IMG/VR virus record: IMGVR_UViG_3300027771_000013
Span: 1 to 64,000 of that record
Direction: 5' to 3' (one strand)
From: a virus
Length of the DNA: 64,000 bases
The notes beneath the pieces were generated by a model. The model was not told the origin of the DNA and did no database searches. It was given only the letters and a program-made list of their open reading frames with translations. The position numbers were made by a program, and so were the translations under genes. Of the stretch, positions 10,201 to 53,808 are shown one piece after another. The first letter of the stretch is position 1. Every line of letters begins with the position of its first letter.

Positions 10201-11134
10201 CAACAATAGTAGCGTCTGCAATAACAGCTGAATTAATATATACCGCACCATCGTCAACAATAAAAGGAACTATACTATTATCTGCTGAACCGCCAGGATG
10301 CGTTATAGCAAAACGATCTGCATTAACAATAAACGTAGATGTGGCAGTTGCATCATATGCTTCACTGTATAAACCAAAGCCTGCGACATTTCCGTCAACA
10401 TCAAGTTTAACTGAGTATTGAGCAGTTAGACCGTCTTCTCCCGCAACAGTATTTTGTAATACTTCTATAGAAGAAAATTGTCCGTTATAACTAGACTGAA
10501 GAGTGTTTACGCTTGTCGCTACAGCTTCATACTGCGCTGCTCTTGTAGTAGCTTCTGAAGCTATTACTGCCGTAACTGCAGCGTTTTCATCGCTAACGGC
10601 AGAAAGTAATGAAGCCGTAGCAATTTCATACGAAGATCGACGGTCAATTTCGTCAACTAAATCAGTTGCTGTTACAGTAATTTGATTAATAGTTGAATTA
10701 AGCGATGAAGATAACAAGCTGCTATTAATTTGCCCTGACAGCAACTGAATCATTTGAGTAGTAGTAGGAATAGTTGTTGCTACAGCAGGTCCAATTAGCT
10801 CGCCTCTTGTGCCAATAACTGAATGCACTTCTACCCAGTAATACCAAGTTTCTGGTAAATACGCTTCGGCCCCATTTTCTTCGGCTGCTGTTATTTGATC
10901 AAAATAAGTATTGCCAGTAACTACTGCTAGATTAGTTTTTAAAAGCTCATCATTAATAGCACTGCGATAAAGCACTGTGTACGCCACAGCTTCAGGATTA
11001 CTCGCTGAGTAATCCCATTCAATTCTAATACCTCCTAGTACAGGAGTAGCACTAATTCCTAGTGGATTGCTTGGATCTCCCGGTTGAATAACATTAGAGC
11101 TGTAACCTGACCCAGTACCACAATATAAAACCAT
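4226..11134 (-). CDS. Giant J-like tail tip / receptor-binding protein (2302 aa)
   Basis: A fibronectin type III-like domain (about residues 20-115, with IRIEWDY and WYYWVEVHS) leads into a segment like DUF1983 of lambda J-type tip proteins (about 145-375; FIVNADRFAIT, FIVDDGAVYINSAVI, then a helical NITEGKIANASITNAKI stretch). The rest is modular: collagen-like GxxG turns, at least four related modules of the form YFHxAYATS...ATYIGTYTD...DYSWxLIKG, two or three YTWIKYxDD...IGLAYNK...SLIQG modules, and two diverged lectin/SPRY-like domains (about 1450-1625 and 2040-2210). It ends in a short beta-rich domain. Its role in host recognition is inferred. J-like organisation is unusual for a short-tailed N4 relative. 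The gene heads the tail operon; its upstream region carries a hairpin on the other strand. Confidence 0.8.
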   Translation of the reverse strand: MVLYCGTGSGYSSNVIQPGDPSNPLGISATPVLGGIRIEWDYSASNPEAVAYTVLYRSAINDELLKTNLAVVTGNTYFDQITAAEENGAEAYLPETWYYWVEVHSVIGTRGELIGPAVATTIPTTTQMIQLLSGQINSSLLSSSLNSTINQITVTATDLVDEIDRRSSYEIATASLLSAVSDENAAVTAVIASEATTRAAQYEAVATSVNTLQSSYNGQFSSIEVLQNTVAGEDGLTAQYSVKLDVDGNVAGFGLYSEAYDATATSTFIVNADRFAITHPGGSADNSIVPFIVDDGAVYINSAVIADATIVAAMITDGNITEGKIANASITNAKIKDKISSTDWDDELKTGWQIDKAGVVQASGIGIYIPGYYNGDGVLVPPTPLIESGVLGDSIANTSQEWADISGTGLPEDSATRNAYRGLHNDALDYVLGDMVSFNDQIYICILVHLGTDTDTDPTGTNIPNTYWDIFSQRGAAGITITNTATTNGVTVVTFSDASEIIINDGTPGVAGSVKIAYASGTNGQDKSFTQGTLKFIKYVESTGAAVNDISDSVYAGGYVRFIGEDGDPAVNSGVVAVYSKDGSGVVGQTSFAHNDDQVWVSFVEWVDDVPALSDALVTAATFVRFVGTDGTVSNARSVSLTSPKQAITYAADGTTPVPSAAFTITATPVNVVGVAKYTFKVNGVSVQASSTSATYAYTPPNAHSDLPVIVTVELTEDNNAAILDTDTFTIFGLKPGVQGESGFSSAQWVDRAQGSRSATRDNISYDATENALVLKSDTDGSLAVVFPAFKVQENQTYKIRFSYKTVADIDGETGSGGLYLRMIQDNVALPSDKIYLETTQDASLPDVKGLSNNPGVPGYTQIIANASVIDSWTTVEYDYVVPAGAVVVSAQILNWSDLGTRPLLIKNLEITKEVESALTIVLANEAHAIPANDTGVVSSYANSGTEIRVYEGVNELDYDGVGSAKSHYTISAVPTGIALGSAITGSGANAALVSEHTNMTTDVASVTYTITGKRASGVAFSITKEQTLTKVRAGVEGTSVLLSATETANGVTTVTFNDGQSIIINDGADGVDAVDPSIFSWKGANFFQTNTNYAGGDKLTFTSAISGKCLIKVKARDAEGDIHVGLNSVDLGTMSGPDEVTQFYAFTATNLIAGANEISIWSSSNDGGVFYEVHVFSLPADGAMPELGVDYFAPTPGVNGTSVKLQYSVDGSSSWQDAFTVGDLYVRSGTKAGNAASYTYGAAAKFVPEKGIEYSDGNPGVSAYLHLAYGTSDAGANFNQSPAGATYIGSYTDDEITDSATAADYTWAKIRGDNGTSSSLIIAYAENVSGLNASFTPSVNLKFIKYYEYTGVAPTIGDDVFDSGFVKYIGDNGDTPTDSGVIAIYATSVAGDNASFSYVAGHEFVNFYEWSGSVPVSIPSALTYVKYVGSKGDTGDGGALGGQLDWQLDGMEVNDQGQLRKTFVENTPPTPPTPPAWDSQAYSTVGYQGACYMSFRSLTINKSIMVGLTTDPADGASYNKIDFVFYLRWDGNLSIFENGFWVMNPERAHLADIEDQRIWLENRSVNDIFTIAYDNSVVRYYMNETLLHTTITAPDQTLYVDSSQHSTGYAYTFDSVMFAPTGNVGVRGPDGNSLYTWIKYGDDASGTGLADLPTGKFWIGLAYNKSTANESTNAADYTWSLIQGPKGDPGTVVHGTSMYFHVAYATSATGDDFSTTSATDATYIGTYTDETEADASEDSESWNWSLIKGPEGPRGYRGFSVQGDSAYFHTAWATSADGSVNFNTSIFANATYLGTYADTTETDSTTYSDYSWVLVKGAQGDPVYTWIKYADDNVGTGLNDSPIGKPYIGLAYNKTTDAESNTPGDYTWSLIQGVKGDTGDIPTVADIGGGSYTITGQNGSITISDGGNAPIPTVLDNGNGTVTVNDGADNTVLISDGVTPEFNVDYFNGNDGSYISYVYKNVTIGSAAPNTPTGGAFNGTTETVPFGWADIAYFETGKITYRSETKYSVNFGNWSNSGWSTVTEFIIQGDQGDQGSDAGSIAWTTSSSDALGGVIVDDNGVITKSGTNGWNAQAYSDYSYEKGCYVKFKTKRIAGSYMLGLNADPSSNLSYEGIDHCWYINGEQGKIFENSSPLRSPVTNSQVFVTVAVDDTFAVAYKDNKIYYYHNDVLIHTTETVVNLVFFVDSSFYTVSSTAIVDNVVFDRTPPFIGQITPENKTTYIAKLTVDTLEIADNSIFVPQVITTIGQSEQRVRELNGNTVEWDIGTTASLDFSDAHESTSFAIQFTFDVFGKAYGYRSPGM
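6711..6737. repeat. Short tandem repeat encoding PPT repeats
   Basis: Three copies of the 9-nt unit GGAGGTGTA lie in tandem inside the giant tip gene. On the coding (minus) strand they encode a Pro-Pro-Thr repeat (PPTPPTPP) that forms a hinge just before the first lectin-like domain. Such a unit can change copy number by slippage without shifting the frame, altering linker length. Confidence 0.8.
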
Positions 11135-11524: not shown

Positions 11525-11839
11525 ATGCAACAAGAATGGATTAACTTAGCCAAATACCTTACCGACGGTGGTTACACAAAAAATCAATTTGAATTTTGGA
11601 AACGTCACCGTAAAAACCCTTTAGTACTTGGCAATCATTACGTATCAGGGTCTAATGGCAGTTCAGTTAACATAAGGAGCATGGATCAATGGTGGAGCGA
11701 AGGTGGCCCGTATGTATCGACAATAAACGTGGAAAGCCGCGCGTCAGAATCTACAAAGGTGGCGGTAAACTTGTCTTCAACAAAACGCTCGATGTCAACA
11801 TTAACACCAAAAGTGGTATCGCCGAAGCGATTAGGCTAA
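11525..11839 (+). CDS. Excisionase-like (Xis) DNA-binding protein
   Basis: 104 residues. The first ~60 have the form of a small winged-helix recombination directionality factor: EWINLAKYLTDGGYTKNQFEFW, a basic turn, LGNHYVSGSNGSSVNI as the wing, and MDQWW closing the domain, like DUF1233/Xis proteins. It starts after AAGGAATTATT. The last 50 residues overlap the integrase start by 151 nt in another frame and look like read-through sequence without a fold. Position just before the integrase agrees with a directionality factor that turns Int toward excision. Alternatively it may be the N-terminal domain of the integrase joined by a frameshift; an AAGGAG before the integrase start argues against that. 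Confidence 0.6.
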   Translation: MQQEWINLAKYLTDGGYTKNQFEFWKRHRKNPLVLGNHYVSGSNGSSVNIRSMDQWWSEGGPYVSTINVESRASESTKVAVNLSSTKRSMSTLTPKVVSPKRLG

Positions 11840-12843
11840 GAGACGAAGTTAAGCACCGACTTAAGTTTGGTATTGCACTAAGACAAGAAGAAGTTACTCA
11901 AGTGCATCTATTTCATATCGCTGCACAAGAGTACCTCGATGAACTAGGCGGCGCTTATTCCACCCATTTAGACTACGAAGGCATCATTAACGGCTGGTGG
12001 TTGCCTGTATTTGGTAAGTGCTTAACCGAAGAAATTACTACAAAGGAAATCAAAAAAGTATTAGATGCTCGGCAAGTTGCTGGTCGTAAAGTGTCCCGCA
12101 AACGTAAAAAGAACGCGTTAATTCCGTTGCGCGGAATATTTAATCATTTAGACATCAAACCAAACCCTGCTGATTTTCATCTCAAGAAAAGCGACGAAGA
12201 CCAGAAAAAGCCTGTGGAACGTTATTTACCCGAAGAGCGCAGTCGTTTGTTGTCTGCGCTTAAAGGTGAGCAGTTAGTTTACTTTGCAATACTCTTGGGT
12301 TGTGGACTTAGACCTGCTGGCGAGGTTTTAGCGCTGCAGTGGAAAGATTATAACGGTAAGCAATTGCACGTCAGCAAGACGATTACACGGCGTCGAATGA
12401 AGTATTCAACTAAAACTTACGTATCTCGTAAAGTTGCTGTGCCTACTTGGGTACAAGAAATACTCAACCAGCACCCTACTCGTTTTAAGAACAGTTATAT
12501 CTTCTTAAACAAGTTTGATAGTTTTTACTGTGATGCCGATAATTTCAATAAAGAGTGGAAGCTTGCGCATACGGCTACCGATACTGCGTATCGCGTACCG
12601 TATACGTGCCGCCATACACGGGCAGCAGAGTTATTGTCCATAGGAATTGCACCCGCAGAAGCGGCGAAACAATTAGGCCACTCATTGCAGATGTTTTTAG
12701 ACACGTATTCAGAATTTATTGACGAATATTGCTCAGAACAAGACCCTTTGAGGTTTGAAGGCATAGCGCCTCAAATTCAAAAACAGTCCCAAAACAGTCC
12801 CAAAACCGAAGTTGTTCCCATTGGGAATAAAAAAGGAATGTAA
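11689..12843 (+). CDS. int: Tyrosine recombinase (phage integrase)
   Basis: 384 residues. An arm-binding-like basic N-terminus (RGKPRVRIYKGG) and a SAM-like core-binding region (about 70-165) are followed by the catalytic domain. Catalytic residues seen: R208 in LLGCGLRPAGEVLAL, K242 in the beta-hairpin, Y305-x-x-R308 (Tyr in place of the usual first His of HxxR), H331 in LGHS, and the nucleophile Y340 in DTYSEF. It catalyses site-specific recombination between attP and attB. The ATG at 11689 has AAGGAG 9 nt upstream, inside the excisionase-like frame. A 23-nt tRNA 3'-end sequence lies 25 nt after the stop, the usual place for attP. Integrases are not part of textbook N4-like genomes. Confidence 0.93.
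   Translation: MVERRWPVCIDNKRGKPRVRIYKGGGKLVFNKTLDVNINTKSGIAEAIRLRDEVKHRLKFGIALRQEEVTQVHLFHIAAQEYLDELGGAYSTHLDYEGIINGWWLPVFGKCLTEEITTKEIKKVLDARQVAGRKVSRKRKKNALIPLRGIFNHLDIKPNPADFHLKKSDEDQKKPVERYLPEERSRLLSALKGEQLVYFAILLGCGLRPAGEVLALQWKDYNGKQLHVSKTITRRRMKYSTKTYVSRKVAVPTWVQEILNQHPTRFKNSYIFLNKFDSFYCDADNFNKEWKLAHTATDTAYRVPYTCRHTRAAELLSIGIAPAEAAKQLGHSLQMFLDTYSEFIDEYCSEQDPLRFEGIAPQIQKQSQNSPKTEVVPIGNKKGM
12781..12802. repeat. Tandem repeat at the integrase 3' end (possible arm site)
   Basis: Two perfect copies of the 11-nt unit AAACAGTCCCA end the integrase gene, 66 nt before the attP core. Integrase arm-type sites are short direct repeats flanking the core, so this pair is a candidate on one side; it also encodes the NSPK-like tail of the protein, so it could simply be coding sequence. 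Confidence 0.4.
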
Positions 12844-19169: not shown

Positions 19170-19358
19170 ATGGGTATCATTAAGGATGCCCTGCAATTTA
19201 TATTTTCATTTATTGCAGCCGCATTACTTGTAGCATTAGGCACAGCAATCCTGATATTTGGTGGAGCCATTATGTCTGGCCTTACCCTACTAGCAGGATT
19301 GCTGTTTATTATTGTTATTGTGGCTTTTGTTATTAAAGCAGCGCTATCGGGAGATTAA
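19170..19358 (+). CDS. Small membrane protein (two transmembrane helices)
   Basis: 62 residues, almost all hydrophobic: helices at about 9-32 (FIFSFIAAALLVALGTAILIF) and 36-58 (LTLLAGLLFIIVIVAFVIKA), with short charged ends. It starts 2 nt after the previous stop without a clear SD, so translation is probably coupled. Its end overlaps the end of the opposing vRNAP gene by 4 nt. Function unknown; a superinfection or membrane-modifying protein, or a holin, would fit the size but nothing distinguishes them. Confidence 0.65.
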   Translation: MGIIKDALQFIFSFIAAALLVALGTAILIFGGAIMSGLTLLAGLLFIIVIVAFVIKAALSGD

Positions 19359-22300
19359 TCTCCGTCTATAGCGTCAATTAATAACTGCATTGTAATTGCA
19401 TCGTCCCAGGTATCTATAAGCTCAAACGCACCGGCACCAAACGGATTAGCAAGCTTTTCAGTAATGACAGAGTCTAATACACTTTGCATTGCTGGGAAGT
19501 AAGCTTCCAACATTGCTAAACCAAACGCTCTTGCTGGACTTTCTCTAAACAAGTTAAAAATAGTTTTCTGTATACGTATGTAGTATTTAGTAAACCAAAT
19601 TAACCCAGTGTCATTTAAGTACTGCAATGCTCTGTGTTGGGGAATATCATAGTTTACAAACGAATCTTGTGCCCTACTCATTGCATCTACTCTTGATAAA
19701 GGATTCTTTCTACGAGTAGTAAGATGCTCAACTAAAATTAGTCGCCCAATAAAATCACTGTATTGCGTGGCTTTATGCATTACTTTATACGTTACAGTAT
19801 CATGTGTCATTAAAACGTTTTTAACACCTGTTTTAATTGCATTGGGAACTAAACGCGTTTTTCTATCAATAGATTCCATTAGTTGGGATTTCATTGAATA
19901 TGGATCTTCTACAGAATTCACATCTTCTACAATAGTTTGATACAAGCCTGCCGAAACCAACTCATGTACTGGGTTCCTTTCTAAAGCGTCTTCAAGACGA
20001 ACAATACTCTGCTCAACTTCTCTTTTCATGTCGCCAGCAAAATACCCTGTTTCAACCTTACTTTTTAACGCAAACAAACTTTTTTCGTCTCTCTCATACT
20101 TAACTGTATTGATAAAGCCTTTTACATGCCCAGAAATAATTTTATTTATTGACACACCTGTCCAAGCAAGTAATGTTACATTGCTCGACAAGTTACCAAT
20201 AAACGTAACTAAGTTTTTAATAACTAAAATATCTTTAACTACGCCTACAATTTCTTGCCAAACATCTTCAGTTTGTCTAATTCGTAATTGAGACACACCT
20301 AACCCATTTGCTATACCAATAATGACTTGTTCACTTATTTTTCGTTGATCTTCTTCTGTAGGCTTCCAAGGAAGCAAACTATTTATTGCATCAGACAATC
20401 CTAATGCACGCTTTTTGTACCCATCAGTAATTGAATATTTGCGATACCCAAAAGTCATGTTGAACACATCATTTTTAATAAACATGGCATTACCGCCCCA
20501 AACGCGTTTTATTTCACGCTTAGTTGCTGTAGGCATAAGTCTAAATGCTTCCGCAATCTCTGGATCTGAACTGCTTGCACTAAAGTTTATATAGTCTTTA
20601 GGATTTTTTACGTAGTCTTCTTCGTACTGTTTGTGATGCGCATTAACAACTTGATTGTTAATATCTTCAGAGCCTGCCTTATCAAACACATTACTAGCCA
20701 TTGCTCCCAGTACTTGGTCAATGCGAGTGTCTGGGTTAAAAATAACTTCTTTAGTAGACTCCAACATAAGTTGACGCCATCCAGTAATATCACCTTTAGG
20801 ATTAAATATTGGAGCTAGTCTAGTTTCTCTATCCGATTGTGGCGTATAGTTTTCAGGTCGTGTCAGTAACGCATTACGTTTATCTTCTTTACGCTTTGTA
20901 ATACGTGCTGTTTCATTTACATTTATTGTGCCCAAACTATCTTTGCCCGCTAAACTACCTGCTGAACGTTTTCCTGTAGTAGACATAATTCCACTGACAA
21001 CTTTAACTAGCCCAAGACCTTTTGCTGTGTATAAATACTGTTCTTCGCTAGTAGTGTCATCTTTATCTTTGCCTAACTTACTATCAAAAACTTTAACGTA
21101 TCCAGCTTTTTCGAGTTGTTCCCCGGTAACAGCGTCTGCAATCCTTAAATCAATATTCTGGTCGTATATTTCTTTAACATACCCTTTTCTCATAAGTGTA
21201 GGGTCGTTATTAAACGCAGTTGTTAATGCTTCCTCTTGCATAGCTTGATGCTGTCTTAACGTATACTCTACACCGTTTTCGTTAACTTCTGGACGAGTAC
21301 GCTCTTGAACAAATAACTCACGCAACGTTTCTTTTTTCGTTTCTGCTAAATATTTAATAGCGTATAAAGACACCAATGGATTAAGTATTTCAACGGCCAC
21401 TGCCTGATCTTGTGCAGACACGGTATTTTTAAATCCAGCTAGCATTGCTATCTGATGTACGTTTTGAGCTTGATTTTCATGCGTATGGGAAGAAACCATA
21501 TGGTCAGCCAAATCTTTAGCTGCACTTAAATACCATAAACGATAAGTACCTGTTAACTGACTTTCCATTTCTTTAATAGCGTTATTCAGTTCTATTCCGT
21601 CTTCTGCGAATAAGCTTTCCATTTCAGCTATAGTGCGATTAGTAAATAACATTGCTGCGTCAGTACGTAAAAAGTCAGTTACTGCTCTTGATTGCTTGTC
21701 CGTCAGTGACGTATACGCAGCTCTTGCTACGTTAGCTACCTGTGTTTTTATTGCTTGACGACTTTGAGTATGTCTATTCCCTAAGTTTAACAACGTATGT
21801 AATACTTGATTGTTTTCAGTACGCCCTTGCATATCAGTCAACATAGACATAAATACGCCTTGTTTACCTTCTGATAATTGATTGCGTACTTTTTTAATTA
21901 CCTCTATAACTTCTTGGCCTCTGTTTTCTAAAACCACTTCACCTACTTTGCCCAATGCTTGCACTACAACAGCGTTTGAGTTTTTTATTTTGTCAGACGT
22001 CAATGCCTTAACTAAGTTATTTCGTCCTTTATTTACCAAAGCCTCTATAGTGTCTTCAGCAGTCTCTGTTACTGTCTTACTTCGCTGTAAACGCAATGCT
22101 TCTTTCTTACGCTGTGTGGCTAAAGATCTTGCAAGCGTAATTAAACGAACATCTTGTGTTTCTGCACGGTTAGTGCGCGTAATTACTCGACGTAAATTAG
22201 CCATTAGCCTGGCAATAAGCGCAGCAGCTTTTTCATACAATGACATTGAAACATCACTGTCTGTTGTTTGTGCAACAGGCAATGCAGCTAAAGCGTTACT

Positions 22301-25300
22301 TAACGGTTCATACGCTACAGCTAACGCACCAAATTGACTAAGGAAGTCTGATTTACTTTCCTTGCTAGATCTACGTTCAGCAGTAAAAATAAAGGCATAA
22401 ATTTCTTTAGCTCTACCCATATCGCCGTCATAAAAATCATCAGGTGATAATGCGTTTCTAGCTTCTTCATACAAATCAAACAATTCGTTTTGCGCCAAAG
22501 AAGAGCTTGTCTCCATCGAAGTCTGTAAAGCTTGTTCAACTGCTTGTAACGTATAAGCTTCTTGGTCAGTTAATCTCAAAGCACCAAGTGCTTTTGATGT
22601 AAATGGCTTTGTTTTATTTAGTAACGATTGAATAAACACATCTGTAGCATGAGCAGGAGACGCTCTTTCTGCTTCAGCCTGGAATATGCCGTATGCGCCG
22701 TAAACAGTTTCAACTACTGACTGTAGAGCGTCTCTCATTCGTGCTGTGTGCTTTAACGAAGCACCCCTACCCGTTTTATCAGCCAACGCTTCAAAGACGC
22801 GTCTATGGCTAAAGCTAACTGGATCAGAGCTTTCTTGCTTACTAATCTTTTGTTTTGTAGTGGTGGTATTTTGTGATCCACCATTTTCTGTTTGACTAAA
22901 GATAATTGAAGTATTTGCCAACACAATAGCTACTGCGTTATCCGCTTTAGTGCTGTCTTTAATGTTTAGTCCGGCAAACAAAATATCTTTAATTGCTTTT
23001 ATAAATCCTTGTAGGCCCGTAATATTGTCTGTTTCTGTTGGTAGTGCATTACGGTAAGTAATGTTTGCTAACACTTCTCTTTGAAAGCGTTCATTTGTAA
23101 GTCCCCAAGACATTAATTCATCGACGTCTTGTGTGGCATTTCCAAAGTCTTTCAAGTCGTTGTCTGCAATATACTGCTTAGCTTTTTTACGTACTTTCTC
23201 TAAATTAGCTACTGCTTCATTAACAATTCGATCACTTTTGCTTAATACAGTATTGGCTTTTTTAGCTAACTTAGCCGCTTGCTTAGCAGAGAATACGCGT
23301 GTTTTAACTGTTGCATGCAGTAGTTCATGCATCGCCAATTCAGGTGACACATTAGACTGGACCAGGCTAGCGCCTTTGATATACAAAACACCTTGGTTAT
23401 TATCTGCATTTGCGTCAAACCACCCTAATGCATTTTCAAACCCAGCTGGGATTTCTGTTTCAGTTGTAATGTAAACAACCCGAATGTCCCTGTTAATCTT
23501 TTTATTAATTGCAGGGATAAGGCGGCTATATGCTTTTTCCGTAGCAGATACTTCTACACCTGATTTCATTACCCGTTTAAGCTGATCAATCAATGCACCA
23601 GCATTAAGATCTTTAGGTGCTATTGACTCAAACCATCGTACTAACTGTTCATTAGCAGGTGTAATAGGCGTGCCTACTTGATCGCCACTTACACTGTCTG
23701 ATGGCATAGAAGGAGGGCTTTTCTTTTGTGTTGCAGATGGATTCAGAATACCTTCAGGAGCTTTTGCTACTAATGGCGCACCTAAAACCATCAGGCGGGC
23801 TTCTATTGCTGCTTTTTGCTCAGCTGTTGGAGCATAACTTGCCCCTTCAAAATTGTACTGGTTTACCGCACGTACTGTGTACAAGTACTGCAGCTTAGCA
23901 ATTTCAGCATCTTTAGCAACTTGTTCAGTCTCTGCCAACACTGTATTAGCTACTTCACCTCCAGTAATGTCTTCTAAAGAGTTATCTCGTTTAAGCAACT
24001 TTTCAAGTAACGCGTCCATCGCTATTTGAATTTCTTTTGAAAACTCAGGATGCTGATCAACAAACTCTTCAAAGCTTTTATTAGTGCGTGCAGCGCCTTC
24101 GTAGATTTCAGTAGGTAATGAGTATTCAAGTAACCCATCAAACGTTTCTTTATTAAGCGCTTTTGCACCCGCTATTATATTAGCAATAGATAAGCCCAAC
24201 GCATCGTGAATATTTAATGCAGGCATCATTCCATATACTGTAGAAGCAATTCCGCTATCTTGAGCGTGAATCCCACCAATTGTTGTTGCAGCACCTGGTG
24301 GCAGTTGCACAGTTTTTTGTGCTCGCCCTTTCATACTATTTTTAGATTTAGTTGTTGAATTATTTGTCGGTATTTTATTTTTAAAATTGGTAATTACGTT
24401 GTATGCCAGATCCGTTGCTGCAGCTAAACGCGGCTTTTGCTTTGACATTCTTAAGCCTGCGGCTACGTTACCTGACTGCTTTGACATTCTAGTATGCGTA
24501 GTCGGTTCCATCGAAGAAATTTGCTCGACGATAGCTTGCTCTTCTTCCAAAGTAAGGTCATGTAAAGGATTTTGTCCTTTAGTACTTTCTATCTCACCAT
24601 TTGCTACTTTTGTATCAATAAGCTGCTGTCGCAACAAAGTGTATGCTAAATCGTACTGTGCATGAGCAACTTCAGTAGCACTGCCCATTTGATTTCTTAC
24701 AGAGACGACTTCATCAAAGTTCTCTTCTAGCAACAACGACATGCTAGGTCTAATTGCGTTCCATAAGTTAAATGTTGCTCTATCGTATTGCGACGTTGTA
24801 AGAGCAGTTTCTAACGCTTGCTCAAACGACATATTGACGTTTAAGCCTCTAATAGCCTGGGTCGGTTGAATGAACACATTCACTTGAGTCAAAATATCTG
24901 TTAAAGCACCTTTATCTTGATCTTTAACTGCTTGAGTAATCTGCTTACTGTAGGTATCTAAAATGTCACTAGCCATTGCTGCAAAGGCTTTATCTGCACC
25001 TGCACCAAACATCAAAGGTGTTAAAGGACTTTTGAGTAATTTACGGCCTTCTGAAGTAACTTGATGTTGCCCATCTTCATTCTTAATGATGTCAGGCATG
25101 AAAGAAAACATCGCTGTAATAACATCTTTATTTCTTTCTACTGCCCATGCTTTAATATCGTCATTTGGATCTACTGGGTTCAGTAAATATTGGTGTAACA
25201 GCTTTTCTAGTTTATCAGCGGCTTTTTCGTAGAAGTCTTGCCCTTCTTCTTTGTATTCAGCAAAATTTTCATGCACAGAATCTTGTGTAAAGAACCCAAA

Positions 25301-28300
25301 TGCTTCGCCAAACTCTAATAAGTTTGCGCCTAATTGTGCATGTAATAACGCAGGTCCATTAGCTACACCATCAACTTCGCCCATGATATTAGCTTCAAAC
25401 GGCTTACCATTAGCTTCTTTATATTTTGCCCACTGAAGTAATGCATCGAGGCCAGCAGCTTCATTGCTGCCTATATAATTAAGCAATGTCTGTCTTTCTT
25501 GTGGTGATACAGTAAACGAATTCAATCCCAGGCTAACAATAGCAAGTGCAGCTTTAGCTTCAGCAGACTCCATTTCTTTTTCTAAGTTAGCAATCGTGTC
25601 TGCATTTTTAAAGTTTTCAATTTTTACGCCTAAGTTCTGTGCAACACTTAACTTAAACATATCAATCAAATGCTTGTCTTTATCAGTACCGTCAAAAGCT
25701 ATTTGTACTTTATAGTCAGACAACCCAATAAAATGCCTAACTAATTTACTGCTTTGTGGGTTAATAGCATTTTGCTCAAAGCCAGCTCGTTGAATTACCC
25801 AAATCTTTGCTTGTAAGTAAAACGGTGTTTCTAGTCCATCATCTTCTAATTCTAATAATTCTTTCCACTCTGTAAGCTGCGACAAATCTCGTTCAATACT
25901 TTCGTTAACAGCACGTTGTTTAATAGCGTCTGTTACATGCAAAGCAGTATTTTCTATGTCTACCCAACCCATCATCTGCTTAGTAAAATCATCACCAAAC
26001 TGTTCAAGCAAAGTAACCATATCTTGCTTCATTTGCCACGCATGACTATTTGAAGAATTGACTCGCTCTTGTAGTACTTTAGGTGTTTTTTGCAAACTGT
26101 TCTTAGGCTGTTTTTGAGCGTTATTTTTAGCAGCTAGCGTTGGAAATACTTTTGCGCTTTCAGCCCCGAATAACTTAGCAAACATCATCGTTGCGCCTTT
26201 AACTTTGTCTGTTAAATCGCCTAACTGAGGGAGTCCTGCTTCTGTGGTTTGCGGTACATCAATTAAAGGCGCTACGCGTTGGCCCGTTGTGTAATCTCTG
26301 CGTAAACGGTACGCAGTAATAATGCCTTCTTGATCTTTCAGACTACTTAATGGAACACCGGTAGCTGCTGCATACTCAGCTTGTGTAAACTGGCGTTGCT
26401 CTAAAATACCTTCTGATAACAATAAAGCAACCGCATGGTTACCCATTGATGTCGCTAACGTGCTTAACGTGTCTTTAGGCGCATTCTTTCTTGCTTTAAG
26501 GCCCAGCATTTGTGCAACGTTGTTACCTATCTCATTTTGCGTGTATTTATCTAACTGCCAACCTTCTCCGTATATAGTCTGGGCTTGGCTCGTCAATGCA
26601 TCATTAGTGCTGTCGTCATCAACACGAATAAGCGATAAAACTTCTTGTTGTGTACTGTATCCACTGTCATTAATACGCTCAGCTAAATATTGAAAAGCTG
26701 CTGTAGTAATAGCATCTTCTACATTACCTTCTAACTGCCCATTAGCATCAACAAAATATCTAAGCTTGTCTCTCCAATTAGGTACACCGTCAACATCTCG
26801 CATATTGCCAGAAACTTTGCCTCTCCAGGCTTTGGCATATTGCGCTAAAGCAAAAAGTAAACTCTTATTTTCAGCCGTTAATTCAGCATTGCCTGTGTAA
26901 GTGGCTAAAATATTTGCAGCTTTATCTCTAGTCTCTGCAGTTACTTCATCTTTAGCAGGCGCAAATAAAGACAAAAAGTTCTTTTGTCCAATAAAAGCTC
27001 GCTTAGTTATATCAGTCGCATTAGTCTTTGCTTGATATATCCATTGCTGAACAATGTTTCGTTCTTTAAATGGCTTATCAACATCTTCTTCTAGCATTAC
27101 CGAACTTAGTATTTCTACACGGCCTGTTTCTTCGTTTACTTCTTCAGTAGGATTTTCTAATTCGTCTATTAAATTATAAATAAACGTTTCTTCATTAATC
27201 TCTGTACTTTCTTGCGCCACCTGCTCTTGCACTGACTCCGGCTGCGCCTGTGTCACTGCTTCGGCAGTTGTTGCATCACTCACTTGCTCATTATCTTGTG
27301 GTGCTGGCTGATCTTGTACGGGCGCTTGTACAACGTCTGTTGCAACAGGCTCAACTGGTGTAGTTACTGTTTCATTTTGTGTAGTAGTCGCCGCAGTCGC
27401 TTGTCCGTCATCGACGGAAACCGACGCAGGCTCTACTTGTGCATCTGCTGTAGAAGCACTCTCTTGTGGTACTTCTTGCTGTGTTTCAGTAGCTGCCGCT
27501 ACCTGTTCGGCTGAAGCCGAGACAGGTGCAGGCTGCGTTGCTAAAGTGCCGTCTGCGTTAAAATTTAAATCAATGGCTGCATCAATTTGTCTGTCCATTG
27601 CTTTTATAGCTTGAACTTCTTCGATTACATCTTTAACAATGTTTTTCTGTCTGCCTTCAAACGTTAATGTATTAAGAGCTTTGGCATTGGCAGGCTTTGT
27701 TGCTGAAGTTGTCCATTCATTGGAACCTTCTGCCGTTTTATAAACATATTGAGTAGTACGTTGACCTTGTGCTCCCGAAGCTAAGTAGGCTGCGTTTCCT
27801 TGCTCAACTGCTTTGGCTTTACTGCGATGCCCACTTAACCAGCTCTTAATGTCTTTTTGTTCTTTAACTGCTGATGTTTGGTCGTTAAGACGAACAGCTG
27901 TAGCAATGCGTTGGGCATAAGAAGTTAATCCTTTCTTCTTACCGTCTTTAACGTCTTGACCAACTTCACTAGTAGGCGCTTCTAATAAAGAATTTAGATA
28001 CTCGTTTTGTTGTACGGTAAAGCCAGTAATATTGCTGTTTAATAACTTTTGTGCACGCTCAGGCGTAGCAGCTTCTTCGTTAGCCAACATAAAGCTAATA
28101 GATTGTTGTGCTGCTGTAGCTTTTTGCTCAGAAGATGAGTCTTCTTTATCAATGATTGAATCAGCGCTTTCAATTGCTTCAATGGTTACTCGATTACCTG
28201 CATTATTTTGTTCGGTTTTAACTTCACCTAACGTAGTAATTAAGTTGTTCATTTCTTTCAAAGGCTTGCCAGCTAAAAATGCTTCGTCTGCTCGAATACT

Positions 28301-30406
28301 TTCTTCAAGCTCTACACCTTTTGTCGCTAGAACTTTTGCGCTTGCTTGATACTGGGCACGCTGCGCTTTAAGAGTGGCACGTTTTTCTTCTTTAGATAAC
28401 TCAGGATCGCCTTCATCACGAATAATTTTATTTTGATTCTTTTTCTGCTCTACTAAAGCTTGTCGTGCGGCTTTTAATTTCGCTTTTTTATCACGTATTG
28501 TTACTTTATTAACCGTATTAATCTTTTCAGACAAATCTTTAATCTGGGTATCAATATCAGCAACCAAAGTATTGAGTTGCGTTGTTGTTTCAGTAACTTC
28601 TGTTTCAGTAAGCTCTGGGTTTTTTAAACGGATTCGCAGCGCATTAGCTGCTTGAGCAGGATTATACGTGGCTGATTCAGGGTTAATTAAAGCGTCTATA
28701 TCTCCTGATTGTATTGCCATTACTGTTTCAGTTGCTACTGCTGCTCTATCTGAAGATTGCTGTGCATTAACTTTTTTTGCAGTTTCAGTATTTCCAGTTA
28801 GTGCTGTGTACACTGCACCGGGTCCAGACACACCAATACCGCCCATAGTACCTAAAGTAGTATTGACGAATATATCTTTACCGTCTAATGGCTTACCGCT
28901 TAATGATGATTTTTGTTCAGCAACTGCTTGCAGTCCTTCTGTTGCGCCTTCAACTAACGCACTAGCAGGTGCCTTAAGTACGGTTGCTCCACGATCTGCT
29001 AATTTTCTAGTAATACTCGCTGTGTAATCAGCAGCCATATTAGACGACATAGCTTTTGGTTTTTTCCACGTTCTTAATAGTGTGGCATCACCGATATAAG
29101 ATGCTGCTGCCCAAGTTAGCCCCCAAGCAGCCATTTCTTCCATCTCGTCTTGCGTAGGATCAGCACCGTCATTATTTTTACGGTACTCAATCATGCCTTT
29201 GTCAAAAACATCTACGCCTTGTGCCATTACTGATGCGGCCAGTAATGGGCTTGCAATAACACCTAATCCAAGATCAGCTGATGATTGTGCTACAAGATCA
29301 ACAACAGCTCTTTTGTTATTTAATAGTACGTTTGTACCGCCTTTTAACAGCTCAGCACTTACTTTAGCTGCTGTCCATGCTGTTGCTAAATGTTCACTAG
29401 CAGTATCACCAGCTTCGTATTGAGCAAGTAGCTCTTCACGACTTTGCTTAGTTGAGTCCCATGTTTCTGCAGCTTCTTTCGCTGCTTTTCCAGCGTTATC
29501 TCCGCGTGCCACTCCTGCATAAATAGGCTCAATAGTTGCAGTGTTGTCTGCTTTTTCTTTTCTTAAATCATCAACCCATTGAAGCACTTCTCTAGTTGAA
29601 CGATTACGTTTAGTAGCAGGGCGTCGGGTAACTTCTTTACCTTCATATGTACGCTCCAAAATAGCTGACTCTTCTGCAGTTAATGCAGGCGGCGCATTTG
29701 GATCTTCAAGATCATTAAAGGGTATAGAAGGATCAAGAATGTTAGCAGTACGTTCTGCATTACGAGAAGCTATATAAGCATTTCGATCTTTTTCTTTTTT
29801 GTACAATGCTTTAGTGCTGTCACTTATAATAGATAAATAATCTGTTTCCGCCAAAGTCTCATTTGCGTTTGCAACAGCGGCAGTTATTCTACCTACACCT
29901 TCTACGACATTTGCAGCTACTTCTTTTGTGCCACCCCAAAAGCTGCCTCGCTCATCTCTAGTCTGCCAGGCTTTAGCGTCTACAGCATCTCTGTTTGCTA
30001 TTAGCGCTTCCATTCCTGCTACATTATTTTGCGCGTTCTGTAAATTGAATTGAGACACATCACTGGCTTTGAGCATGTTACCTGCTTTAACGTAATCGTT
30101 AATTGATGCGTAATCTGTAACATTAGCAGAAGGTAAAACAGGTGCCGGAGTGTTTTCGTAAAATTTAAATTCTGGCTCAGTGTAAGAAGAAGGATAACTT
30201 TCTGATTGCGGTCTTTGCGGAGAGTTAGGAACCAATGCTTGCTTTGCACGAGCCAGGTTATCTACAGTTAAAGTACCTAGTTGAATAGGATCATTGCTAG
30301 ATGGCGACAACGCAGCCAACTGAACTGCTTTAGTCTGTGTTGCTGTGTTTACTAAATTAGCTTTAGGCGCTAACGCCGCCAACACTTTTTCTGTAGGTGT
30401 AGTCAT
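19355..30406 (-). CDS. Virion-encapsidated RNA polymerase (N4 vRNAP-like, 3683 aa)
   Basis: Single-subunit RNA polymerase motifs lie mid-protein: an NPQSSKLVRHFIG segment (about 1548-1560) at the TxxGR region, motif A GEVDGVANG (D1679), motif B R1788-x3-K1792-x7-F1800-G, and motif C HAQD (2047) to NIHDALG (D2068). Spacing A to B Lys (113) and A to C (389) is close to N4 vRNAP (111 and 392, as I recall). F1800 replaces the usual Tyr. About 958-1070 is a Pro/Gln/Glu-rich linker before the polymerase. HELLH at 2360-2364 with later DELMSWGLTNERFQ looks like a metallopeptidase domain. The C-terminal ~1300 residues match the region N4 needs for packaging. It is ejected with the DNA and transcribes early genes. 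Leftward, last gene of the capsid operon. Confidence 0.95.
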   Translation of the reverse strand: MTTPTEKVLAALAPKANLVNTATQTKAVQLAALSPSSNDPIQLGTLTVDNLARAKQALVPNSPQRPQSESYPSSYTEPEFKFYENTPAPVLPSANVTDYASINDYVKAGNMLKASDVSQFNLQNAQNNVAGMEALIANRDAVDAKAWQTRDERGSFWGGTKEVAANVVEGVGRITAAVANANETLAETDYLSIISDSTKALYKKEKDRNAYIASRNAERTANILDPSIPFNDLEDPNAPPALTAEESAILERTYEGKEVTRRPATKRNRSTREVLQWVDDLRKEKADNTATIEPIYAGVARGDNAGKAAKEAAETWDSTKQSREELLAQYEAGDTASEHLATAWTAAKVSAELLKGGTNVLLNNKRAVVDLVAQSSADLGLGVIASPLLAASVMAQGVDVFDKGMIEYRKNNDGADPTQDEMEEMAAWGLTWAAASYIGDATLLRTWKKPKAMSSNMAADYTASITRKLADRGATVLKAPASALVEGATEGLQAVAEQKSSLSGKPLDGKDIFVNTTLGTMGGIGVSGPGAVYTALTGNTETAKKVNAQQSSDRAAVATETVMAIQSGDIDALINPESATYNPAQAANALRIRLKNPELTETEVTETTTQLNTLVADIDTQIKDLSEKINTVNKVTIRDKKAKLKAARQALVEQKKNQNKIIRDEGDPELSKEEKRATLKAQRAQYQASAKVLATKGVELEESIRADEAFLAGKPLKEMNNLITTLGEVKTEQNNAGNRVTIEAIESADSIIDKEDSSSEQKATAAQQSISFMLANEEAATPERAQKLLNSNITGFTVQQNEYLNSLLEAPTSEVGQDVKDGKKKGLTSYAQRIATAVRLNDQTSAVKEQKDIKSWLSGHRSKAKAVEQGNAAYLASGAQGQRTTQYVYKTAEGSNEWTTSATKPANAKALNTLTFEGRQKNIVKDVIEEVQAIKAMDRQIDAAIDLNFNADGTLATQPAPVSASAEQVAAATETQQEVPQESASTADAQVEPASVSVDDGQATAATTTQNETVTTPVEPVATDVVQAPVQDQPAPQDNEQVSDATTAEAVTQAQPESVQEQVAQESTEINEETFIYNLIDELENPTEEVNEETGRVEILSSVMLEEDVDKPFKERNIVQQWIYQAKTNATDITKRAFIGQKNFLSLFAPAKDEVTAETRDKAANILATYTGNAELTAENKSLLFALAQYAKAWRGKVSGNMRDVDGVPNWRDKLRYFVDANGQLEGNVEDAITTAAFQYLAERINDSGYSTQQEVLSLIRVDDDSTNDALTSQAQTIYGEGWQLDKYTQNEIGNNVAQMLGLKARKNAPKDTLSTLATSMGNHAVALLLSEGILEQRQFTQAEYAAATGVPLSSLKDQEGIITAYRLRRDYTTGQRVAPLIDVPQTTEAGLPQLGDLTDKVKGATMMFAKLFGAESAKVFPTLAAKNNAQKQPKNSLQKTPKVLQERVNSSNSHAWQMKQDMVTLLEQFGDDFTKQMMGWVDIENTALHVTDAIKQRAVNESIERDLSQLTEWKELLELEDDGLETPFYLQAKIWVIQRAGFEQNAINPQSSKLVRHFIGLSDYKVQIAFDGTDKDKHLIDMFKLSVAQNLGVKIENFKNADTIANLEKEMESAEAKAALAIVSLGLNSFTVSPQERQTLLNYIGSNEAAGLDALLQWAKYKEANGKPFEANIMGEVDGVANGPALLHAQLGANLLEFGEAFGFFTQDSVHENFAEYKEEGQDFYEKAADKLEKLLHQYLLNPVDPNDDIKAWAVERNKDVITAMFSFMPDIIKNEDGQHQVTSEGRKLLKSPLTPLMFGAGADKAFAAMASDILDTYSKQITQAVKDQDKGALTDILTQVNVFIQPTQAIRGLNVNMSFEQALETALTTSQYDRATFNLWNAIRPSMSLLLEENFDEVVSVRNQMGSATEVAHAQYDLAYTLLRQQLIDTKVANGEIESTKGQNPLHDLTLEEEQAIVEQISSMEPTTHTRMSKQSGNVAAGLRMSKQKPRLAAATDLAYNVITNFKNKIPTNNSTTKSKNSMKGRAQKTVQLPPGAATTIGGIHAQDSGIASTVYGMMPALNIHDALGLSIANIIAGAKALNKETFDGLLEYSLPTEIYEGAARTNKSFEEFVDQHPEFSKEIQIAMDALLEKLLKRDNSLEDITGGEVANTVLAETEQVAKDAEIAKLQYLYTVRAVNQYNFEGASYAPTAEQKAAIEARLMVLGAPLVAKAPEGILNPSATQKKSPPSMPSDSVSGDQVGTPITPANEQLVRWFESIAPKDLNAGALIDQLKRVMKSGVEVSATEKAYSRLIPAINKKINRDIRVVYITTETEIPAGFENALGWFDANADNNQGVLYIKGASLVQSNVSPELAMHELLHATVKTRVFSAKQAAKLAKKANTVLSKSDRIVNEAVANLEKVRKKAKQYIADNDLKDFGNATQDVDELMSWGLTNERFQREVLANITYRNALPTETDNITGLQGFIKAIKDILFAGLNIKDSTKADNAVAIVLANTSIIFSQTENGGSQNTTTTKQKISKQESSDPVSFSHRRVFEALADKTGRGASLKHTARMRDALQSVVETVYGAYGIFQAEAERASPAHATDVFIQSLLNKTKPFTSKALGALRLTDQEAYTLQAVEQALQTSMETSSSLAQNELFDLYEEARNALSPDDFYDGDMGRAKEIYAFIFTAERRSSKESKSDFLSQFGALAVAYEPLSNALAALPVAQTTDSDVSMSLYEKAAALIARLMANLRRVITRTNRAETQDVRLITLARSLATQRKKEALRLQRSKTVTETAEDTIEALVNKGRNNLVKALTSDKIKNSNAVVVQALGKVGEVVLENRGQEVIEVIKKVRNQLSEGKQGVFMSMLTDMQGRTENNQVLHTLLNLGNRHTQSRQAIKTQVANVARAAYTSLTDKQSRAVTDFLRTDAAMLFTNRTIAEMESLFAEDGIELNNAIKEMESQLTGTYRLWYLSAAKDLADHMVSSHTHENQAQNVHQIAMLAGFKNTVSAQDQAVAVEILNPLVSLYAIKYLAETKKETLRELFVQERTRPEVNENGVEYTLRQHQAMQEEALTTAFNNDPTLMRKGYVKEIYDQNIDLRIADAVTGEQLEKAGYVKVFDSKLGKDKDDTTSEEQYLYTAKGLGLVKVVSGIMSTTGKRSAGSLAGKDSLGTINVNETARITKRKEDKRNALLTRPENYTPQSDRETRLAPIFNPKGDITGWRQLMLESTKEVIFNPDTRIDQVLGAMASNVFDKAGSEDINNQVVNAHHKQYEEDYVKNPKDYINFSASSSDPEIAEAFRLMPTATKREIKRVWGGNAMFIKNDVFNMTFGYRKYSITDGYKKRALGLSDAINSLLPWKPTEEDQRKISEQVIIGIANGLGVSQLRIRQTEDVWQEIVGVVKDILVIKNLVTFIGNLSSNVTLLAWTGVSINKIISGHVKGFINTVKYERDEKSLFALKSKVETGYFAGDMKREVEQSIVRLEDALERNPVHELVSAGLYQTIVEDVNSVEDPYSMKSQLMESIDRKTRLVPNAIKTGVKNVLMTHDTVTYKVMHKATQYSDFIGRLILVEHLTTRRKNPLSRVDAMSRAQDSFVNYDIPQHRALQYLNDTGLIWFTKYYIRIQKTIFNLFRESPARAFGLAMLEAYFPAMQSVLDSVITEKLANPFGAGAFELIDTWDDAITMQLLIDAIDGD

Positions 30407-51600: not shown

Positions 51601-52536
51601 ATGTCTCAGATAAGTACTGTTACGCAACACGTTGTTGATCCGTATGAACAACAACAAGAGATTGAATACGCTTATTCAACTAAATTTATTGATCAAAAGA
51701 TCCGCAAAGAAATTCTTGCTTGTCCTGACACTGCCCTGCGCATCACCACTGGCGTACGCCTGTTAGAAGATTGGCTTAAAGATACCTATTACCCCAGCAA
51801 AAATGCCCGACTTGCTCAGATTAAAGACATGGATTTACATGCTTTAGTGGTACAAGTTTTCACTGGCATTGCTTATCTGCAAGTACCTACTTTATTTGTC
51901 TCTATTACCGCTGCATTAGCTAGTCGACTTAAGTTTGATGACAAACGCGACAGCATTATGACTATTGCGGAGATAGTAGCCGTTCTATGCCATACCGATG
52001 CGTATGACATCTACAAAGAGAGCGAATTTAGCGGCTTAAAACTGGTTTCTTGTATAGTTTTATCTGACAGCTTAAAAGATACCATCAACCACGCTGTTTA
52101 CATGCCACCAATGGTTGCACCACCTGTGCCTATCACCTCTAATTATGAAAGTGCTTACTTATCCTATAACGACTCATTGTTACTAGGACGTGAGAACTCT
52201 CATGACAAAGACATTTGTTTAGACGTTATTAACATCCAAAACCAAGTGCCTTTAACGCTTAACTTTGCGTTTTTAGCTGCTGTGCCTGAAGCACCGACAC
52301 ATCCGCTAGATACCTTAGAAAAGACAACGTTATGGGACACCTTCCTAGAACAAAGTCGTAGCGTGTATCAACTGATGCGCAAAAACGGTAATCGGTTCTG
52401 GATGACGTACAAAACAGACACAAGAGGCAGACTTTATGCACAGGGTTATCACATTAACCCACAAGGTACGCCTTACAAGAAAGCCATGCTCCAACTGGCT
52501 GATTGTGAGCATGTCACTGGAGTACCTACGACCTAA
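51601..52536 (+). CDS. Phage RNA polymerase, small subunit (N4 gp15-like)
   Basis: 311 residues: the N-terminal part of a T7-type RNA polymerase, ending just past the TxxGR motif (DTRGR at 273-277, then INPQGTPYKKAMLQLADCE). It lacks motifs A, B and C, which are in the next gene. In N4, RNAP II is a heterodimer of two such proteins (gp15, 269 aa; gp16, 404 aa) that transcribes middle genes. The stop TAA is followed 21 nt later, in the same frame, by the start of the second subunit. AAAGGTAAT precedes the ATG. Confidence 0.9.
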   Translation: MSQISTVTQHVVDPYEQQQEIEYAYSTKFIDQKIRKEILACPDTALRITTGVRLLEDWLKDTYYPSKNARLAQIKDMDLHALVVQVFTGIAYLQVPTLFVSITAALASRLKFDDKRDSIMTIAEIVAVLCHTDAYDIYKESEFSGLKLVSCIVLSDSLKDTINHAVYMPPMVAPPVPITSNYESAYLSYNDSLLLGRENSHDKDICLDVINIQNQVPLTLNFAFLAAVPEAPTHPLDTLEKTTLWDTFLEQSRSVYQLMRKNGNRFWMTYKTDTRGRLYAQGYHINPQGTPYKKAMLQLADCEHVTGVPTT

Positions 52537-52557: not shown

Positions 52558-53808
52558 ATGGAAGCATTTACCGGATGGCAATACTTACTTATCGACATCG
52601 CTAATCAATACGGATTAGACAAAGAAACGTTTGACGTGCGAATAGCATGGACTGCAGACAACATCAAAGAGTTAGAAAAGATAGCTCACAACAAAGAATG
52701 GAAAGAAAAGCCGTTGTATCTCGCTGCTGTAATGGCATTGCGTGAAGTGCAAAAAGGCAAACCCACAGGGCATTTAGTAGGGTTTGATGCCGTGTGTTCA
52801 GGCATGCAAATCATGTCTGCCCTTACCGGGTGTGAAAAAGGTGCTGCCGCTACTGGGTTAATTAGTACTGGCGAAAGACCGGATGCATACACGTATGTCA
52901 CCAACACTATGTCTAAGATGCTAGGCACTGCATTGCCGCAAGGACGTACAATGGCCAAAGAAGCCACAATGACTTGCCTGTACGGGTCAAAGAAAGAACC
53001 GGTTCGCATCTTTGGTAAAGACACAGATGAATTAAATGTGTTTTACAAAGCATTGTATGCAGTTGCACCCGGTGCTTGCCACTTGTTAGAAGACTTAGTT
53101 AACTCGTGGATACCGTACAGCAAACTCCATGAATGGGTATTGCCAGATGGATTTAACGCACGGTGTAAAGTTTACGTACAACAAAAGAAACGTATCGAAG
53201 TTGATGAACTTAATCATTCACGATTTGAGTACATTTACTACGATAACGAGGGCGAGGAAAAAGGATTAAAGAACGCAGCCAATGTTATTCATAGCATTGA
53301 TGCCTATATCCTTCGCTCGTTGATACGTCGATGCAGTTATGACATTGACGTCGTCAACTCAGCTTTGTCTTGTATTACGTATGAAATGCTTCAACGCAGC
53401 GTGTTTAATCAACCTGCATCCGCTGGGCAATCTAAAGAACCTGAAGTACAAAAATACATCGATTTATACGCCAGTACGGGTGTAGCAGACATTGTTATCT
53501 TAGAACACCTTGCCGTTACTGACTTTGCTGACTTAAGCACTGCACATTTACGCGCATTGACCAGTGTTTTGGACACGCTGCAAACACACGATCCTTTCCC
53601 TGTTGTCACTATTCACGATGACTTCAAATGTCACGTCAACAACATGAATCACTTACGCAAACACTATAGAAACATCTTAGCTGATCTTGCTAATGGCACC
53701 GTTATTGACGCCATTCTCAATGAACTTCAAGACACTGCCATTACTTACACCAAACGAAGTGAGGGACTGGCACAAAAAATCATGAAAAGTGAATACTCAT
53801 TGAGCTAA
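52558..53808 (+). CDS. Phage RNA polymerase, large catalytic subunit (N4 gp16-like)
   Basis: 416 residues with all catalytic motifs of a T7-type polymerase: motif A GFDAVCSGMQ (D77), motif B R130-x3-K134-x7-Y142-G, and motif C IHDDFK (D354), preceded by VIHSIDAYILRSL. Together with the upstream subunit it forms the middle-gene RNA polymerase. CGGAG lies 6 nt before the ATG, so it has its own ribosome site. The two genes are in the same frame, separated by one stop and seven codons, so one mutation would rejoin them. Confidence 0.92.
   Translation: MEAFTGWQYLLIDIANQYGLDKETFDVRIAWTADNIKELEKIAHNKEWKEKPLYLAAVMALREVQKGKPTGHLVGFDAVCSGMQIMSALTGCEKGAAATGLISTGERPDAYTYVTNTMSKMLGTALPQGRTMAKEATMTCLYGSKKEPVRIFGKDTDELNVFYKALYAVAPGACHLLEDLVNSWIPYSKLHEWVLPDGFNARCKVYVQQKKRIEVDELNHSRFEYIYYDNEGEEKGLKNAANVIHSIDAYILRSLIRRCSYDIDVVNSALSCITYEMLQRSVFNQPASAGQSKEPEVQKYIDLYASTGVADIVILEHLAVTDFADLSTAHLRALTSVLDTLQTHDPFPVVTIHDDFKCHVNNMNHLRKHYRNILADLANGTVIDAILNELQDTAITYTKRSEGLAQKIMKSEYSLS

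Follow-up and report, generated by a model that had tools for sequence, protein, structure and literature searches.

Phenylalanine at the ribose-reading position of N4-like virion RNA polymerases and its coupling with a histidine at the T7 His784 position

In T7 RNA polymerase the Tyr639 hydroxyl senses the 2'-OH of an NTP that is still in the pre-insertion state; in the Y639F mutant the discrimination between rATP and dATP falls from about 120-140 fold to 5-7 fold (PMC9836923). A second residue, His784, contacts the 2'-OH according to one account (PMC13286181) and enters the minor groove of the hybrid according to another (PMC4551944). When the H784A change is placed on top of Y639F, the T7 enzyme admits bulky 2' groups (PMC4551944; PMC13286181). 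The division of the choice between RNA and DNA building blocks among Tyr639 and His784 of T7-type RNA polymerases has so far been argued from engineered mutants.

The giant virion RNA polymerases (vRNAPs) of N4-like phages include natural variants at the first of these positions. Ceyssens and co-authors, in a 2010 comparison of N4-like phages with LUZ7 and LIT1, named Y678F as the single departure among the motif residues (PMC3715699, supplementary legend) and suggested that it possibly helps to discriminate against dNTPs (PMC3715699). Their remark concerned phages of the LUZ7/LIT1/PEV2 type (PMC3715699). Two roseophages have been reported to retain Y678 (PMC2784036). The phenylalanine state by itself is already known in relatives, and the phage described here is a further, divergent example of it.

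The virion RNA polymerase and its active site

The stretch of DNA that was analysed, here called the window, comprises 64,000 nucleotides of a viral record. An N4 gp50-like vRNAP gene occupies positions 19355..30406 on its minus strand. The ORF, read from 30406 to 19355, is uninterrupted over 3683 codons. Its product matches phrog_2206, "virion RNA polymerase", with E=0 over residues 154-3670, which is nearly the full length, and it matches N4 vRNAP PDB entries with a best E of 3.5e-61. At 3683 aa, and with a full-length family match, it is of the size of the giant proteins of this type (about 3000-3800 aa). None of its 3683 residues is a cysteine, and the absence of cysteine is a trait reported for N4-like vRNAPs (PMC3715699; PMC2784036). 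The C-terminal part has a zincin-like HExxH motif, HELLH, at residues 2360-2364 (23315-23329, minus strand); the C1 domain of N4 vRNAP is reported to contain an HExxH as well (PMC12633501).

The polymerase core is assigned to residues 1448-2200 (23807..26065, minus strand) from an AlphaFold2 model (pLDDT 92.8, pTM 0.90) and Foldseek comparisons. The core has the mini-vRNAP fold: the best Foldseek match is the N4 mini-vRNAP (E 7.5e-23; TM 0.77 to the N4 core), followed by T7 RNAP (E about 2e-9), and the T7 structures matched are elongation complexes.

The catalytic residues of the family are found in columns that are invariant in all 132 non-redundant vRNAP cores of the survey described below. 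They are D1679, the motif A aspartate in EVDGVANGP (25370..25372), R1788 and K1792 of motif B (25031..25045), and D2068, the catalytic aspartate of the motif C pair H2067-D2068 (24203..24208), all on the minus strand. K1554 and R1557 of an NPQSSK..R motif (25736..25747, minus strand) show almost no variation, or none, across the vRNAP alignments; judged by its position, this motif may be equated with the T/DxxGR motif (the T7 R425 region). Tyr678 is also listed among the catalytic residues of N4-type vRNAPs, and here the window enzyme has Phe1800 instead. This tyrosine is not a family-defining residue, since 55 of the 132 members have phenylalanine.

Codon 1800 is TTT, read from 25009 to 25007 on the minus strand. 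Motif B of the window enzyme, GRKLLKSPLTPLMFGAG, that is, R1788-x3-K1792-x7-F1800-G, aligns in phmmer without gaps to N4 vRNAP (RGIAKNPLTITIYGSG), in which the stretch RGIAKNPLTITIYG pairs with the complete motif. In the T7 record the motif is R627-x3-K631-x7-Y639-G640, with the same spacing. The preliminary description of this locus had reported a gapless motif B with a TTT-encoded phenylalanine where T7 has Tyr639 and N4 has Tyr678, and the codon and both alignments agree with it on each point. It had also considered that another tyrosine might be placed at the site. There is none within 18 residues of F1800, so none fills the F1800 slot of the motif, and the arginine and lysine of the motif are invariant. 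Sequencing error at this codon is excluded because phenylalanine is also present in L061 and L062, the nearest relatives in the sample (46% core identity), and in 55 of the 132 non-redundant enzymes.

The probable counterpart of T7 H784 is H2047 (24266..24268, minus strand) in the motif IHAQDS. When the vRNAP alignment is compared with T7 in hhalign, IHAQDS is paired with T7 VHSQDG, which places H2047 on H784, and D2068 is paired with D812. This profile match is local and has a low overall probability, so the equivalence of H2047 and H784 rests mainly on the HxxD that the two proteins share just before motif C. D2050, at the T7 D787 position, and S2051 follow in the same motif (24254..24259, minus strand).

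Phenylalanine, tyrosine and histidine among vRNAPs

Nineteen annotated N4-like phages, N4 and over 200 IMG/VR loci were sampled, and collapsing the sequences at 90% identity left 132 non-redundant vRNAP cores. When the window core protein was used as single query against viral contigs there was no match, and alignment-based scans were needed; a scan of genome contigs for prophages carrying this type of vRNAP found none. Phenylalanine occupies the F1800 column in 55 cores and tyrosine in 77, counts that depend on the loci returned by the scans and are not a census. The preliminary description had called for such a comparison of motif B across N4-like vRNAPs, and its implication that phenylalanine is rare is not supported. 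The residue, noted as early as 2010, is the usual one throughout a large clade; many uncultured phages belong to it, as do LUZ7, LIT1, Littlefix and phCDa, all of them Pseudomonas phages. Tyrosine is found in N4, Pylas, Presley, VCO139, pVa5, RiverRider, Axy12 and Possum.

LUZ7, LIT1 and PEV2 (Schitoviridae, Migulavirinae) resemble the window phage in having phenylalanine at the Y678 position and histidine at the H784 position (PEV2 by report), and they have the giant vRNAP and the motif A/B/C framework in common with it. With F1800 and H2047, the window enzyme is a Phe-type, LUZ7/LIT1-like vRNAP. However, its core is only 27-29% identical, its motif B reads PLM-F where theirs reads AMM-F, and the window phage, unlike this group, has an integrase gene. 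N4 vRNAP (gp50) and its mini-vRNAP are like the window enzyme in fold and motif spacing, in belonging to a giant cysteine-free virion protein and in the C-terminal HExxH, but N4 has Tyr678, Gly at the H784 position and a Phe-Asp motif C where the window enzyme has Phe, His and His-Asp. In the column of T7 H811, which is H2067 in the window (24206-24208), 47 of the 132 cores have phenylalanine and one has tyrosine, N4 being among them; the enzymes without histidine in this column belong mostly to the clade with glycine at the H784 position.

The codons for tyrosine (TAT, TAC) and phenylalanine (TTT, TTC) are one base apart, and all four are seen at the site. Even so, 8 changes suffice to explain the column on a tree whose length is 72.7 substitutions per site, compared with a median of 49 for the 626 core columns, so phenylalanine and tyrosine each look held by selection and not by drift. 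Phenylalanine is retained between Phe enzymes whose identity is as low as 19%. Parsimony requires at least 7-8 changes between the two residues on the best trees, or 4-5 if only well supported branches are counted; the deep part of the tree is weakly resolved, with 31 open forks.

All 55 Phe enzymes have histidine at the T7 H784 position, and 12 of the 77 Tyr enzymes (16%) do. The pairs observed in the 132 cores are Phe+His (55), Tyr+Gly (36, including N4), Tyr+Gln (22) and Tyr+His (12), with Tyr+Ala (3), Tyr+Ser (2), Tyr+Thr (1) and Tyr+Ile (1) being rarer. Phenylalanine with a residue other than histidine does not occur among the 132 non-redundant cores. Five further loci in which both sites are readable fit the pattern, and when the set is collapsed at 40% identity there are 20 Phe+His, 9 Tyr+His and 28 Tyr+other enzymes and none with Phe+other. 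The peptide patterns used to find vRNAP loci lie elsewhere in the protein and include neither site, which means that the search itself did not create the pairing.

The coupling persists after correction for the tree. A Pagel-type comparison of dependent and independent models for Phe/Tyr and His gives LR 35.5 (p=3.7e-7), and on a second tree LR 33.1. Likelihood tests of this kind can be inflated by shared ancestry, and the same test was therefore run on all 609 variable core columns as a null. The H784 column ranks first (LR 35.3); the next column has 23.9 and the 99th percentile is 18.0. H784 is also the top column by plain frequency inside the mixed clade. The S2051 column, in the HxxDS motif, takes third place, and the top dozen also contains positions 1795 and 1797 of motif B. 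Serine is present in the S2051 column (24254-24256) in 52 of the 55 Phe enzymes and in about 6% of the Tyr enzymes, and this column may represent an additional partner of the Phe/His pair. The coupling of phenylalanine with histidine appears to be new; it is unreported in the literature searched.

Phe and His could instead be two markers of one lineage, linked by ancestry alone. Phenylalanine does fall mostly within one large clade, and an independent-pairs sign test is not significant: the few pairs stand at about 3 to 0, with p 0.125-0.5 on one tree and 0.25-1 on the other. As the independent pairs are too few, it is the likelihood model, together with the ranking of columns, that carries the case for coupling. 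The other core columns share the same ancestry, however, and none of them comes near H784. Both sites also vary jointly inside the clade, where Tyr+Gln enzymes are nested among Phe+His enzymes (L144 beside L091, and the group of L119, L100, L107, L130 and L147) and differ at the two positions together. Outside or basal to the clade, L212 and L159 are again Phe+His. For these reasons we doubt that ancestry alone accounts for the pairing.

Possible meaning of the Phe-His pairing

Sugar checking in T7-like RNA polymerases may be carried out by two side chains, the hydroxyl of Tyr639 and His784, the latter situated at the growing end on the side of the 2'-OH and the minor groove. The pair would be partly redundant in vRNAPs, and at least one of them would always be retained. 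The window phage and the LUZ7/LIT1 group would have lost the tyrosine hydroxyl and kept the histidine; N4 and many more would have lost the histidine and kept the tyrosine; no lineage in the sample has lost both. That phenylalanine occurs only where histidine is retained suggests that either residue can cover for the other. We put at roughly 60% the probability that this is a clade-wide natural Tyr-to-Phe exchange at the ribose-reading site, kept only alongside a histidine at the H784 position, with the two acting as partly redundant sugar checks. The coupling would then reflect sugar checking, and the window enzyme would be active with rNTPs. The histidine may be kept for another reason, since the role of H784 in T7 is described differently between papers.

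The active site of the window enzyme corresponds to that of T7 Y639F with H784 kept, the difference being that it is natural and not engineered. As the tyrosine hydroxyl is absent and the histidine is kept, the window enzyme should act like T7 Y639F, with normal transcription from rNTPs and with discrimination against dNTPs probably exerted through His2047 and its neighbours. The combination in T7 Y639F/H784A has no natural counterpart among the 132 vRNAPs. The best reading of these alignments is that nature often uses the equivalent of T7 Y639F and, in this sample, never that of Y639F/H784A.

The preliminary description had offered two explanations for the phenylalanine: looser selection of the sugar, or compensation by a residue elsewhere. 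The sequences favour the second, in a particular form: a histidine accompanies every Phe enzyme and is the strongest correlate in the core. It appears to be a second check that was retained and not a new residue, since T7 itself has both tyrosine and histidine.

The first explanation takes two forms. In one, sugar selection would be relaxed or re-routed onto His784 throughout the clade, dNTPs or 2'-modified nucleotides would be incorporated at rates like those of the engineered enzymes, and this would serve early infection or replication; we regard this as unlikely. In the other, which we also think rather improbable, Phe vRNAPs would, inside the cell, accept appreciable amounts of dNTPs or hypomodified nucleotides, for example in mixed primers for replication. 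The engineered Tyr-to-Phe change cuts the discrimination of T7 RNAP about 20-fold (PMC9836923), both early transcription and replication are reported to need N4 vRNAP (PMC2784036), and phenylalanine is strongly conserved once present, all of which would suit a relaxed choice. The Phe clade, however, always retains the His784 check, which would be unexpected if looseness were the aim. The literature searched holds no report on the activity or sugar selectivity of any Phe vRNAP, nor any biochemical account of LUZ7/LIT1-type enzymes using dNTPs. In bacteria the rNTP pools are larger than the dNTP pools, so a looser choice need not have an effect.

It is very improbable that phenylalanine serves to adjust the mobile loop of motif B or the gating of the template and not sugar choice. 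In favour of such a role, the motif B loop of N4 keeps the site closed before the promoter hairpin is bound (PMC4496689; PMC12633501), T7 Tyr639 acts as a gate by stacking on the template (PMC9836923) and the motif B neighbours 1795 and 1797 correlate with phenylalanine too. But Phe and Tyr stack alike, so that loss of the hydroxyl is not called for, and the position of His784 as the top correlate is left unexplained.

The vRNAP family is a repeated natural experiment, with tyrosine without histidine, histidine without tyrosine, both, and never neither. This natural set allows the question of Tyr639 and His784 to be tested directly. The natural Y639F-like polymerases are also a supply of starting points for the synthesis of 2'-modified RNA.

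The second RNA polymerase and other genes in the window

The middle-gene RNA polymerase subunit RNAP2, which is N4 gp16-like, is encoded at 52558..53808 on the plus strand (PF00940, E=1.3e-19). It is a single-subunit polymerase with vRNAP-like motif B spacing, but it keeps both residues, Tyr142 (52981-52983, plus strand) and His245 (53290-53292, plus strand). Its motif B, RTMAKEATMTCLYG, confirms the earlier statement that the second RNA polymerase of this phage keeps Tyr142. Both the tyrosine and the histidine are present in 86/86 sampled RNAP2 proteins, a control that is partly circular for the histidine and not for the tyrosine, because the histidine was part of one of the two patterns used in the search. 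A probable RNAP1 subunit lies at 51601..52536 on the plus strand, as suggested by its TDTRGR motif and its location upstream of RNAP2; a Pfam search with it gave no match. In another N4-like phage (L310, IMGVR_UViG_3300023202_000034), a group I intron at positions 1266-1526 (Rfam RF00028, 62.9 bits, E=4e-15) splits the RNAP2 gene at motif C, adjoining the codon of the catalytic aspartate.

The integrase of the window phage is of the tyrosine type (11689-12843, plus strand; PF00589, E=2.5e-11). Its presence in an N4-like phage points to a temperate life style, and integrases have been reported in some uncultured N4-like viruses (PMC10654107). No tRNA genes were found within the 64,000 nucleotides. 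A 2302-aa protein encoded at 4226-11134 on the minus strand has tail-tip similarity (PF09327, E=2e-18) and is large for a podovirus-type tail protein.
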